From: Robertkochia aurantiaca
GTDB lineage: Bacteria; Bacteroidota; Bacteroidia; Flavobacteriales; Flavobacteriaceae
Assembly (NCBI RefSeq): GCF_020166495.1
Contig: NZ_JAINZS010000002.1
Location: 1 to 64,000 of the forward strand
Reading direction: 5' to 3'
Length of the DNA: 64,000 bases
Shown here one piece after another: positions 5,199 through 64,000 of the stretch. Below the pieces are notes generated by a model. That model did no database searches, had not been told where the DNA came from, and saw nothing but the letters and a program-made list of their open reading frames with translations. Each line of letters starts with the position of its first letter. The first letter of the stretch is position 1. Both the position numbers and the translations under genes were made by a program.

Positions 5199-6381
5199 AG
5201 ATCCAGGAGGTACAAGATCCTACTGGATTGCCCGGGAACTTATCGATCAGGGGCATCAGGTGACGATGTTAACCTCAAATAAACCACTTACTCAGAAAAA
5301 AGAAATCGAATACATCGATGGGATTGAAGTAATCTATTTGAATGTTATTTATGACAGTGGTAAAATGAGTATTTATGAGCGATACAAGGCATTTATACAA
5401 TTTGTAGTGAGATCGACTCCGGAGGCATTAAATATAAAGAATGTAGACCTTGTGATAGCTACTTCAACACCATTAACCGTAGGTATTCCTGCTTTAGTTC
5501 TCAAAAAATTTAAAAACATACCCTATGTTTTTGAAGTAAGAGATCTTTGGCCAGAGGTACCTATTCAAATGGGTGGTTTAAAAAATCCAATTCTGAAAAA
5601 AACTGCACTTTGGTTAGAAAAAGTTATTTATAGAAACTCTCTCCATATCATCGCTCTGTCTCCGGGAATGAAGGAGGGTATTTTAAATCGGAATGTTGAT
5701 CCACTCAAAATATCAACCATCCCTAACATGTCAAAAATTGACAAATTCTGGCGAAGACCCAAAGACTTGAAATTACAACAACATATGGGGTTGAGAAATG
5801 ACAGTTTTAAAGCCATCTATTTTGGGGCTATGAACATTGCCAATGATATTCCGTATATTATCGAGGCAGGAAAAAAGCTTATCGAATTAAAAAAAGATCG
5901 TATTGAAATCTTTTTCCTGGGGGATGGAGCCTCCAAAGAAGAAATGCAAAAGAAATGTAAAGATGAAAACATCCATAATATTAAGTTCTTTGATAAAGTT
6001 CCCATGGAGGAATTGTCTGAGATAGTTAACCTTGCAGACGTTTCCCTTGTCACTTTTTCCAATATACCAATTCTTGCTACCAATTCTCCCAATAAGCTTT
6101 TCGACTCGCTTTCTGCCGGGAAAGCTATTATAGTGAATTCTCCCGGTTGGACCCGTACACTGGTAAAAGAAAATAACTGTGGAGTCTACGTTGATCCCAT
6201 GGATTCTTCTGATCTGGCAAAGACACTTATTTATCTTTCAGAAAATCCTGATCTATGCAATACAATGGGCGAAAATGCCAGAAATCTGGCTGAAAAAAAA
6301 TATGATAAGTCTTTACTATGCCGGCAATTTGCAGAGATCGTCGATAAAAAAAATCAGGCCAAAGTCAAAGAAATGCTTTAA
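5158..6381 (+). CDS. WbuB-like glycosyltransferase family 4 protein
   Basis: A 407-residue GT-B enzyme of the WbuB-like type, recognised from MKILYIHQFFKTPEDPGG at the N-terminus, FEVRDLWPEVPIQMG near residue 125 and NSPNKLFDSLSAGKAIIV near residue 320. WbuB enzymes typically add N-acetylfucosamine-type residues early in O-unit assembly; transfer of that specificity here is only inference. The frame is open from 5119. The start at 5158 matches the family N-terminus and gives a 41-base overlap with the preceding GT4. A second WbuB-like paralogue lies at 22446-23693. Confidence 0.9.
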   Translation: MKILYIHQFFKTPEDPGGTRSYWIARELIDQGHQVTMLTSNKPLTQKKEIEYIDGIEVIYLNVIYDSGKMSIYERYKAFIQFVVRSTPEALNIKNVDLVIATSTPLTVGIPALVLKKFKNIPYVFEVRDLWPEVPIQMGGLKNPILKKTALWLEKVIYRNSLHIIALSPGMKEGILNRNVDPLKISTIPNMSKIDKFWRRPKDLKLQQHMGLRNDSFKAIYFGAMNIANDIPYIIEAGKKLIELKKDRIEIFFLGDGASKEEMQKKCKDENIHNIKFFDKVPMEELSEIVNLADVSLVTFSNIPILATNSPNKLFDSLSAGKAIIVNSPGWTRTLVKENNCGVYVDPMDSSDLAKTLIYLSENPDLCNTMGENARNLAEKKYDKSLLCRQFAEIVDKKNQAKVKEML

Positions 6382-61606: not shown

Positions 61607-62539
61607 ATGGCACCTTTCTCCGCGTCCTTTCCTGCCCTGCCCATAGACGAATGGGAACCTACAAAAGAAACACTACACCGGTATTTACAGATCGTAGGTA
61701 AGATCAGGCTTGCCCTGATGCCACGAAAGAATCACTGGTGGTATATTACGCTTTATGTCAACAGCAGAGGGATCTGTACCGGCCCTATCCCCTATAACGA
61801 TTTTGTTTTTGAGATTCAGCTCAATTTTATACAACATCAAGTCGAAATATTCAGCAGTAATGGAAATCAGAGTAGTTTCAGCCTTGAAGATGGTTTAAGT
61901 GTAGGCAACTTTTACAGCAATATCATGAAGGGGCTCAGTGATACAGGCGTCATGGTTTCAATCAAGAATATACCTTATGACCTGGCTGATACTATTCCTT
62001 TTGATAAAGATTCGCAACATAACAATTACCAGAAAGAATATGTAACCCGGTTCTGGCAGATATTGATTCAGGTAGATCAGGTTTTCAAAGAATTCAGCGG
62101 CCGTTCGTACAGCAAGACTTGTCCGGTTCACCTGTACTGGCACCATATGGATCTGGCTGTAACCCGGTTCTCCGGAGAAAAAGGACCTCAAATGTCTGAA
62201 GGCAGCATCGCTGATCTCGATGCTTATTCTCATGAGGTTATAAGCTTTGGCTTTTGGGCCGGGGATAAAGATGTAAGAGCGCCCGCGTTTTATTCTTATA
62301 CCTATCCTTCCCCTGAAGGACTGGAACAGGAACCATTAAAGCCTGCAGAAGCAATATGGATAGAGAACAACGGAACCCCCATGGCTTTACTGATGTATGA
62401 TGATATCAGGCAGAAAGAAAACCCTAAGCAATTATTGTTAGAATTTCTGGAAAGCTCTTATCAGGCCGGTGCTAAAAGGGCAGGATGGGATGCAGAGCTA
62501 TTGCGGGTACCGGAGCTGGATGAACTGAAAAAGGAGTAG
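61607..62539 (+). CDS. DUF5996-family protein
   Basis: A 310-residue soluble protein. Features are LPIDEWEPTKETLHRYLQIVGKIR at the start, NHWWYITLYVNSRGICTGPIPY near 45, and TCPVHLYWHHMDLAVTRFSG near 180. SFGFWAGD and APAFYSYTYPSPEGLEQEPL follow, and the end is YQAGAKRAGWDAELL. These match the DUF5996 pattern as I recall it. His and Trp clusters suggest a metal or aromatic ligand pocket, but no function is known. It is the last clear chromosomal gene before the repeat array. Confidence 0.85.
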   Translation: MAPFSASFPALPIDEWEPTKETLHRYLQIVGKIRLALMPRKNHWWYITLYVNSRGICTGPIPYNDFVFEIQLNFIQHQVEIFSSNGNQSSFSLEDGLSVGNFYSNIMKGLSDTGVMVSIKNIPYDLADTIPFDKDSQHNNYQKEYVTRFWQILIQVDQVFKEFSGRSYSKTCPVHLYWHHMDLAVTRFSGEKGPQMSEGSIADLDAYSHEVISFGFWAGDKDVRAPAFYSYTYPSPEGLEQEPLKPAEAIWIENNGTPMALLMYDDIRQKENPKQLLLEFLESSYQAGAKRAGWDAELLRVPELDELKKE

Positions 62540-62581: not shown

Positions 62582-63236
62582 GATTACTTCGTGATCCTGT
62601 AACAACCACTCCTGAAAATAAAAACCATCCCCGCTGGCGCGGTGATCGCTTTTTTATTCCCCATTCACTAACAGGACCGAGCGTATTAAAAAAGGTCCGG
62701 TGGACCTTTTTAGCGTAGGGGCCAGCCGGCGGGGCGGGCAAACGACGCTCTGGGGTGAACAGGATTACTGCGTGATCATGTAACAGCCACTCCTGAAAAT
62801 AAAAACCATCCCCGCTGGCGCGGCGATCGCTTTTTTTATTCCCTTTCGCTTTCAAAAGCAAGTGCAGGATTACTGCGTGATCCTGTAACAACCCCTCCTG
62901 AAAATAAAAACCATCACCGCTGGCGCGGTGATCGCTTTTTTTATTCCCCATTCACTTACAGGACCGAGCGTATTAAAAAAGGTCCGGTGGACTTTTTTAG
63001 CGTAGGGGCCAGCCGGCAGGCCATGCAAACGACGCTCTGGGGTGAACAGGATTACTTCGTGATCCTGTAACAGCCACTCCTGAAAATAAAAACCATCCCC
63101 GCTGGCGCGGCGATCGCTTTTTTTATTCCCTTTCGCTTTCAAAAGCAAGTGCAGGATTACTGCGTGATCCTGTAACAACCCCTCCTGAAAATAAAAACCA
63201 TCACCGCTGGCGCGGTGATCGCTTTTTTTATTCCCC
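62582..63236. repeat. Array of hairpin-rich repeats with 287-bp higher-order period
   Basis: Module A (about 81 bp, starting GATTAC) occurs five times, at 62582, 62763, 62868, 63050 and 63155. The spaces alternate between a long one (B, about 100 bp: 62662-62762 and 62950-63049) and a short one (C, about 24 bp: 62844-62867 and 63131-63154), giving the order A-B-A-C-A-B-A-C-A. Each A holds the hairpin ATCACCGC-TGGC-GCGGTGAT or a one-mismatch variant, followed by CGC and a T-run, and on the other strand by GGTTTTTATTTT. B holds AAAAAAGGTCC-GGT-GGACC plus T-run. C holds GCTTT-CA-AAAGC. No coding role: the period is not a multiple of three. Confidence 0.9.
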
Positions 63237-63273
63237 TTCGCTTTCAAAAGCAAGCTTTTGACACTCTGGGGAA

Positions 63274-63306
63274 TAAAAAAACCGCATCATTGCTGATGCG
63301 GTTTTT
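63274..63306 (-). terminator. Terminator of the original tRNA-Arg gene
   Basis: AAAACCGCATCA with TGATGCGGTTTT around TTGC, flanked by A- and T-runs. It lies just past the 3' end of the tRNA fragment in the tRNA's own direction. Confidence 0.8.
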
Positions 63307-63314
63307 GCTTTAAG

Positions 63315-63357
63315 TGATCGCGACAGGATTCGAACCTGTGACCGTCTGCTTAGAAGG
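63315..63357 (-). other. 3' half of a tRNA-Arg(TCT) gene: attachment-site scar
   Basis: On the minus strand the sequence gives an anticodon loop CTTCTAA (anticodon TCT, 63356-63350), the anticodon 3' strand GCAGA, variable loop CGGTC, a full T arm ACAGG-TTCGAAT-CCTGT, the acceptor 3' strand CGCGATC and discriminator A (63315). No CCA is encoded. The 5' half is missing: upstream of the loop the DNA reads TTAAC instead of TCTGC, and no acceptor or D arm follows. Loss of similarity exactly at the anticodon loop is the usual result of tyrosine-recombinase insertion in a tRNA gene. Confidence 0.85.
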
Positions 63358-63448
63358 TTAAATATCACTGCTCTATTTTAAAGACTAACAAAGTTTCAAG
63401 TAATTTATTTGCAATATATTTACAATAATATACCACAAAACAAGAAAA
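63358..63448. other. AT-rich end of the integrated element
   Basis: Ninety-one bases of AT-rich DNA between the tRNA break and the first cargo gene. TATATTTA (63414-63421) is a weak -7 candidate. Recombinase arm sites could lie here, but I see no clear repeat pair. Confidence 0.4.
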
Positions 63449-64000
63449 ATGAGAGGTGGATTTAAGTTTGTAGATATATTCGATAAGGAATTTTTAGAAG
63501 ATTACCCTTTATATAAAAAGTATGATATCACTTTAGAAGATATACCCAAAATGCTTCTTTGGAATCAAGTTTCTATCAACGAATATTGTAATCATTGTAA
63601 AACTAATGAAACCTTCAATTTAAAAGCAAATTATGATCAAATGCTCCCTTCTTTCATGAAAGGATCATCTCAATCAAGCATTCTAAATTTCACCTTGTAT
63701 TTCAAGTGTCAATCTTGCCACCAATTCGAAAGGATTTATTCAATTCACCTCGATGAAGAAAATAAAATTATGTTTAAGACAGGTCAGTATCCTCAATGGG
63801 AGGTTGAATCGAACAAAAAGCTGAAAAAAACATTGGGTAAACATTATAGCAATTACAACAAGGGTTTAATATGTGAGGCTAACTCTTATGGGATTGGAGC
63901 ATATGCATATTATAGAAGAATCATCGAAGAAATTATCGTAGAATTAATCGAAAAGATTGAAGAGATGATCGATGATGATGAAGATAAACAAGTTTATCAT
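63449..64000 (+). CDS. Cargo protein with two CxxC motifs, 5' part
   Basis: ATG at 63449 opens a frame that runs out of the window (184 codons seen). It starts MRGGFKFVDIFDKEFLEDYP. Two CxxC pairs, NEYCNHCKTNE near residue 48 and LYFKCQSCHQFE near residue 88, could form a zinc ribbon. A helical stretch ANSYGIGAYAYYRRIIEEII near residue 150 resembles the C-terminal helices of DUF4145-like proteins, though this is uncertain. The DNA is AT-rich compared with the chromosomal genes to the left. As the first gene inside the inferred element, it is accessory cargo. Confidence 0.7.
   Translation, partial: MRGGFKFVDIFDKEFLEDYPLYKKYDITLEDIPKMLLWNQVSINEYCNHCKTNETFNLKANYDQMLPSFMKGSSQSSILNFTLYFKCQSCHQFERIYSIHLDEENKIMFKTGQYPQWEVESNKKLKKTLGKHYSNYNKGLICEANSYGIGAYAYYRRIIEEIIVELIEKIEEMIDDDEDKQVYH

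Follow-up and report, generated by a model that had tools for sequence, protein, structure and literature searches.

A 2.69-kb two-gene integrative element in the tRNA-Arg(TCT) anticodon loop of Robertkochia aurantiaca

Among the described systems that resemble the locus studied here, one comes from Riemerella anatipestifer, which we take to belong to the same order as Robertkochia aurantiaca, the source organism of the window (the whole stretch of DNA that was analysed, 64,000 nt). In the excerpted account of the Riemerella 10K genomic island, as in our element, a tyrosine integrase gene adjoins tRNA-Arg; in contrast, that island is 10 kb long, holds 12 ORFs and has a 53-bp repeat of another sequence (PMC6764341). 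The same excerpts report that the island excises and that a cloned 1716-bp fragment, carrying attP and the integrase gene, integrates. The Riemerella island supports the view that, within this order, an integrase together with attP may be enough (PMC6764341). In the tDNA islands collected with Islander, as excerpted in PMC4383910, an intact tRNA and a displaced 3' fragment likewise enclose a tyrosine integrase gene, and 2083 of the 3919 islands have, like our element, an anticodon-centred subsite. At 2.69 kb, the element lies near the 2-kb lower limit of that collection, for which size peaks of 13.6 and 39.9 kb are given (PMC4383910, in part). MTnSag1, in the excerpts of PMC5704250, is similar in having one recombinase and one cargo gene in under 3 kb, but it uses a DDE transposase, shows low site specificity and carries a resistance gene. 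The present element would be close to the smallest size possible for a self-integrating tRNA island, and this near-minimal size reveals which parts of the attachment-site anatomy are kept, namely the core, the distal arm, the terminator and an encoded CCA.

A displaced tRNA half and its second copy

An earlier note on this DNA had proposed that a tRNA-Arg(TCT) 3' half, cut at the anticodon loop, marks the near end of an ICE, prophage or island that begins at about 63358 and leaves the window, with the intact tRNA rebuilt at the far end. The half was indeed found on the minus strand, broken at the 5' edge of the anticodon loop, and starts at 63314 rather than at 63315 as had been given. It occurs once in the 64-kb window (chance expectation 0.00), in which ARAGORN called no tRNA. 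The window corresponds to C1:1-64000, and contig coordinates run on from it. The sole other exact copy found in the 3.43-Mb, 11-contig genome lies to the right, where the note had suggested looking, inside an intact tRNA-Arg(TCT) (Table 1). The two 44-bp copies, which lie 2,692 bp apart, show 100% identity. The displaced fragment is downstream of the intact tRNA and shares its orientation. Between the two att sites stands an uninterrupted tyrosine integrase gene, anticipated by the note near one end, which adjoins the rebuilt tRNA and has the same direction. The DNA right of the displaced half is AT-rich, as had been remarked: GC is 32.4% in the element versus 44.2% in the 3.3 kb to the left and 42.7% in the 14 kb to the right, and 2 of 487 sliding windows, those overlapping the element counted in, were as GC-poor. 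The element holds only two ORFs of at least 70 aa, which are convergent with ends 6 bp apart. The element is a small (2.69-kb) two-gene integrative element in the anticodon loop of tRNA-Arg(TCT).

Table 1. Coordinates on contig C1 of the features of the element and its left flank
Feature	Coordinates	Strand	Remarks
Native tRNA-Arg(TCT) terminator, now behind the displaced half	63277-63306	-	Inverted repeat, RNA fold z -6.5, G001 match
Displaced tRNA-Arg(TCT) 3' half, distal att site	63314-63357	-	44 bp identical to C1:66006-66049
In-window part of the integrated element	63358-64000	.	2,692 bp in all, ends at C1:66049
Candidate arm-type site at the distal end (TTGYAA twice, 11 bp apart)	63409-63425	-	67 bp from core; 0 of 5000 shuffles reach the element's three forward-strand motifs
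Cargo gene (ORF A), 281 aa, uncharacterised family (phrog_25239)	63449-64000 in window, ends at C1:64294	+	
Tyrosine integrase (ORF B), beyond window	64300-65556	-	
Candidate integrase-side arm sites, beyond window	65540-65567		
Element-borne terminator, beyond window	65973-66000	-	
Rebuilt intact tRNA-Arg(TCT), CCA encoded, beyond window	66004-66080	-	

The earlier note thus stood in that an element leaves the window from about 63358, but this element ends 2.05 kb beyond the window and, because it has 2.69 kb and two recognisable genes, is neither an ICE nor a complete prophage. No relaxase or type IV secretion gene was recognised in the whole element, with its two ORFs of at least 70 aa, and no structural or lysis gene, excisionase or replication gene was recognised among its ORFs. 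From the int, alpA and primase set of PICMIs, it holds int alone. CIMEs keep their att sites and have lost the integrase, whereas the integrase gene here has an open frame. We rejected an ICE or a large island to the right of the window, the intact tRNA being 2.7 kb away. No DNA relatives of the element were found in phages or plasmids, blastn giving no phage record. Among the titles and abstract openings listed by literature searches, under terms other than the name phrog_25239, none described this element.

Four congeners (G001-G004) each have one intact tRNA-Arg(TCT) in the stretches read. The undisturbed site that the note had hoped for in a related strain was thus found in other species of the genus rather than in strains of the same species. 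Neither outcome named there as contrary, that is, no second copy and no integrase, or the same truncation conserved in relatives, was seen. In G001, the bases after the intact tRNA, terminator included, align by eye with the left flank of the window and do not align with the bases after the rebuilt tRNA. Because G001 carries this matching sequence directly after its intact tRNA, the terminator noted to the left of the displaced half, an inverted repeat with arms at 63277-63289 and 63294-63306, is the native one. In G001 and G004, a 310-aa ORF of the left flank (61607-62539) has orthologues, 68% and 69% identical, that lie about 0.8 and about 1.8 kb past the tRNA, respectively. The 9.9 kb that follow the tRNA in G003 gave no orthologue, and the G002 contig stops 355 bp past the tRNA, short of any such comparison. 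These flank matches identify the left side as the former downstream region and the right-hand 3' half as element-borne.

Unlike the native half, the element-borne half encodes CCA, a feature of 3 of 30 distinct tRNAs inspected in this genome, the rebuilt one among them, as counted at the loci of 30 of 41 tRNA hits. It is followed by its own terminator, for which the fold (z -2.9) is the better evidence, since the terminator scan, with 2 terminator-like sites, barely exceeded the 1.6 of shuffled sequences.

Two side observations concern the native flank. Behind the native terminator, a 101-nt unit that contains terminator-like hairpins occurs five times at 62582-63255, overlapping a 287-bp direct duplication (97%). 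The native terminator stretch is also 75% alike at tRNA-Arg(TCG) and tRNA-Arg(CCT) of the same genome.

Very probably, the 2,692-bp element entered tRNA-Arg(TCT) by recombination mediated by a tyrosine recombinase, with the tRNA rebuilt. Its attP would have recombined with the anticodon loop, the element supplying its own 3' half with encoded CCA and terminator. The tRNA would have stayed intact because the element carried this copy, and the native half and native terminator would have been displaced to the far end, at 63314. Presumably, the recombinase was the element's own integrase, acting on TTGCAA repeats as arms. That part of the tRNA was simply duplicated in place, with no integration at all, is very hard to credit: duplicated tRNA blocks do occur, as in G007, where two intact Pro-Arg copies lie 451 bp apart, but here the base composition is foreign, an integrase gene separates the copies, the tRNA is cut at its anticodon loop and the far side holds the native downstream region. 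The empty-site comparison also disfavours it.

Integrase clade and arm-type repeats

ORF B (418 aa) matches Phage_int_SAM_5 (2.2e-9) and the phrog_1 integrase family (2.1e-17), and scores under the cut-off of the Phage_integrase model. Searching 60 genomes gave 19 with any match, own included, the strongest outside the own genome being 29% identical. Closer relatives (E <= 1e-25, 34-44% identity) are held by 5 of 396 other genomes of the family, and one IMG/VR contig has a relative 40% identical. Four of the five genomic relatives lie directly downstream of a tRNA gene and share its direction; the tRNAs are tRNA-Arg(TCT) in G414, tRNA-Arg(ACG) in G691 and tRNA-Pro in G662 and G474. For the fifth, in G642, no tRNA was found within the 20 kb read. 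Phage-family proteins, namely a DNA polymerase processivity factor, a helicase, RecT and a holin, were confirmed near the relatives in G414, G691 and the IMG/VR contig. Of the 10 proteins compared there, eight matched a family, in some cases one of unknown function.

All seven aligned integrases share K290, R364, H387 and Y396. The usual first catalytic arginine is Q in our integrase and H or F in the six others, and the H of the H-x-x-R motif is replaced by Y or F in the aligned integrases. Some Bacteroidota integrases lack the first catalytic arginine. The relatives carry H or F at this position, so the missing arginine characterises the clade rather than reflecting decay of our copy.

The flavobacterial prophage of G414 is one of the systems nearest to our element, and its genome was the one searched as a whole for a displaced half. 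It also occupies tRNA-Arg(TCT), with an intact tRNA and a displaced half 50.6 kb apart that are identical over 44 bp from tRNA position 32, and the boundary of its displaced half is that of our element. The two integrases are 42-44% identical. The prophage differs by its 50.6 kb, its phage-family genes and its lack of an encoded CCA.

Paired TGCA-type repeats, 11 bp apart, stand near the integrase start in all six genomic members of the clade. Our element has such pairs at both ends: in the strict form, TTGYAA-N5-TTGYAA, two are at the integrase start and one is at the far end (Table 1). None of 5000 first-order shuffles reached these three forward-strand occurrences. The strict motif was found upstream of 4 of 38 integrase ORFs and of 0 of 626 other ORFs; for the loose motif (TGYA pairs), the counts were 13 of 38 and 8 of 626. 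Six of these 13 integrases belong to the clade, two others follow TGCAA pairs and five have a different-looking TGTAC sequence. The distal motif lies 67 bp from the core both in our element and in the G414 prophage. Because a 50-kb prophage shows the same spacing, arm-site rules become testable for an integrase clade so far unstudied. We infer that the TTGCAA repeats are candidate arm sites bound by the element's integrase. The repeat type is not exclusive to the clade: a relaxed motif occurs within 150 bp of the displaced half in four of nine elements (own, G414, G569 and G589), and in G569 and G589 an integrase of another kind starts at it. The integrase-side motifs begin 437 and 448 bp after our tRNA (about 440 bp), versus about 110-123 bp in four relatives and 123 bp in G414, so these candidate arms, about 320 bp farther from the tRNA, may be misplaced.

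About 320 bp of extra noncoding DNA lie at C1:65570-65965 (5570-5965 of locus L005), between the rebuilt tRNA and the integrase arms. This segment contains the tandem repeat GTGGAATA, seen in 2 of 149 genomes of the family, own included. The idea that this repeat represents the arm sites of a lost second integrase was unsupported, given its presence in 2 of 149 genomes and its absence from the other loci compared.

The element presumably originated as the integration module of a flavobacterial temperate phage, with one passenger gene kept or gained. Whether it is still alive is a closely balanced matter, a dead remnant being about as likely as a live element. We give slightly less than an even chance to the reading in which a full prophage, or two tandem elements, lost the phage genes by internal deletion and became immobile, with attL, attR, the integrase and a single moron gene left over. 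It agrees with the presence of phage-family genes around integrase relatives (in G414, G691 and one viral contig) and with the 50.6-kb prophage at the identical tRNA site of G414, and the extra 320 bp or so could be the deletion join. In a Rhizobium phage that was induced from a lysogen, moreover, a homologue of the cargo gene stands alone on the reverse strand, next to the major capsid gene. However, neither gene is interrupted, their ends are 6 bp apart, the two 44-bp repeats do not differ and the distal arm is preserved, with the spacing seen in G414. Furthermore, neither ORF matches a phage structural family in comparisons made as protein for the ORFs alone, and blastn of the element had no phage record. 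An unlikely alternative is that of a helper-dependent satellite, which its own integrase would excise and which would then rely on a phage for packaging or on a conjugative element for mobilisation. Its small size, integrase plus cargo and fixed site resemble the satellites and mobilisable islands of the excerpted accounts (PMC10803314, PMC5704250), but AlpA, primase, replication, capsid and relaxase genes were not recognised in it, and its own genome gave no second match to the integrase at E <= 0.001.

tRNA-Arg(TCT) 3' halves in other genomes

A degenerate pattern of the tRNA half had an exact match in 174 of 397 genomes of the family and two copies in 17, own included. The two matches of G486 and of G710 are on separate contigs, and those of G007 are the duplicated intact tRNAs mentioned above. 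The listed spacings, which leave out three two-copy genomes, are 2.69 (own), 4.1 (G428), 7.7, 9.4, 14.6, 21.1, 21.3, 22.3, 42.5, 47.3 and 50.6 kb; ours is the smallest, the G007 duplication apart. Pieces were read in G022, G414, G428, G569 and G589 and at one end of G621; in the remaining genomes, the second copies may be halves or whole tRNAs.

G428 (L242 1589-5772) carries a 4.1-kb element in tRNA-Arg(TCT) with an integrase and few genes. Its second copy spans 70 of the 75 tRNA bases, and the exchange point may differ from the one in the anticodon loop. In G039 (L071 1128-7731), a displaced tRNA-Arg half and an intact tRNA flank, as judged by eye, an efflux-pump-like operon, and no integrase was found in this stretch.

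An accumulation of such halves was seen in G059, a genome of the same order (83% complete), with at least eight displaced tRNA-Arg(TCT) 3' halves, one decayed, on three contigs (C29, C34 and C3; loci L073, L074 and L075). Two further partial halves at contig ends may repeat halves already counted. One to three larger ORFs lie in the segments between halves. TTGCAA-N5-TTGCAA precedes seven of the eight halves with readable upstream DNA, at 77-78 bp from the core, that is, one helical turn beyond the 67 bp of our element and G414. No integrase was found in the array stretches, nor, by a clade-profile search at E <= 0.01, in the G059 assembly. The only other genome of its family that was compared has a single match, at the intact tRNA. 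These three G059 contigs end in or just past a half, so the repeats may have broken or confused the assembly.

In the excerpts of PMC5704250, CIMEs and tandem accretion produce, as in G059, integrase-less att-bearing elements stacked at one site, and by analogy this known CIME accretion could explain the array. In contrast to those CIMEs, our element retains its integrase and the array has at least eight displaced halves (PMC5704250, in part). A more far-reaching idea, which we consider doubtful, is that our element is one "tRNA-half cassette" of a class in Flavobacteriales that forms arrays, as in G059, and would be a phage-derived counterpart of integrons. By "tRNA-half cassette", we mean a minimal stretch of cargo DNA that has a tRNA-Arg(TCT) 3' half and a helically phased TTGCAA arm site as its boundaries. 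Prophage-type integrases would move such cassettes, in cis or in trans, and the cassettes would accumulate at one tRNA into long arrays. Should the G059 array be what it resembles, integrases of the prophage type are able to assemble integron-like gene arrays at a tRNA gene.

The cargo gene and its protein family

ORF A (184 aa of it in the window) matches phrog_25239, a family of unknown function, at 1.8e-40, and had no Pfam, NCBIfam or PADLOC family below 0.01. The cargo family was matched in 4 of 395 genomes of the order (own included), in 1 phage record and in 2 plasmid records. In GTDB genomes, 245 of 405 candidate stretches matched, the best 80 of the 245 being kept. Record titles place the relatives from Bacteroidota to Proteobacteria, Planctomycetota, candidate phyla and Lokiarchaeota. 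Across phyla, identities reach about 40%, which suggests that the family was transferred between them. A single-protein search of IMG/VR found relatives in 0 of 9 stretches. Numbered as in our protein, four cysteines are conserved in an alignment of 79 sequences, C47 in 77 of them, C50 in 60, C87 in 79 and C90 in 78; R156, R157 and H231 are present in all 79. The confident AlphaFold2 model of one homologue, L085 (pLDDT 91.1, pTM 0.74), combines a small beta part with a long helical part, and this model, of the homologue and not of our protein, had no PDB or BFVD match at E <= 0.001.

The motifs "RR..E" and "G-L-H", together with the excerpts of PMC3710099, had prompted the idea of a DUF4145/HEPN RNase. 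This candidate was rejected. No HEPN or DUF4145 model was among the 25 of 39 Pfam matches listed. With respect to the HEPN R-x4-6-H motif, H219 is invariant in 47 of 47 members, and no arginine that is invariant, or in a 90% column, lies 5-7 residues before it. The L085 model, with its lack of structural matches, was a further reason for the rejection.

We also looked for links with defence. Our cargo protein had no PADLOC match to a known anti-phage system, and 47 members of its family hit seven PADLOC families, one member each, with a best E of 0.0018. Homologues are found on Leptospira plasmids, one of them about 2 kb from a Shedu gene. PADLOC was also run on 144 proteins near and 104 far from family members. 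Among the top 25 models listed, type I specificity and type IIG models match four proteins each for the near neighbours; for the far ones, mad2 matches four, mad8 two and the other listed models one each. Because the models overlap and the top 25 are listed, no defence enrichment is claimed. Our guess, drawn only from genomic company, is that the cargo may act against phages or other mobile DNA. A passenger from such an uncharacterised, widely scattered family is a candidate for a phage-defence test.

A tyrosine recombinase lies within 3 kb in 9 of 86 cargo loci and within 10 kb in 11 of 86; these counts are lower bounds, since the model derives from integrases of Bacteroidota and contig ends truncate many of the loci. 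A tRNA is present in 18 of the 86 loci, and tRNA-derived repeats bracket the cargo in L155 and L160 and, more weakly, in L111 and L083. In L155 (9767-11351, Solibacteraceae), the homologue sits between 27-bp tRNA-Ser repeats (93%) 1.56 kb apart, between which no integrase was found. One homologue follows, by eye, an mnmE-like gene. Integron-type cassette boundaries were detected at 3 of 77 testable homologue loci versus 2 of 845 control ORFs, both of the latter in L104. The three cassette-bounded homologues come from bacterial records (L088 9995-10798, L104 9992-10798 and L123 9974-10780). In L088 and L104, the tyrosine recombinase adjoining the cargo homologue resembles, judging by eye, an integron integrase.
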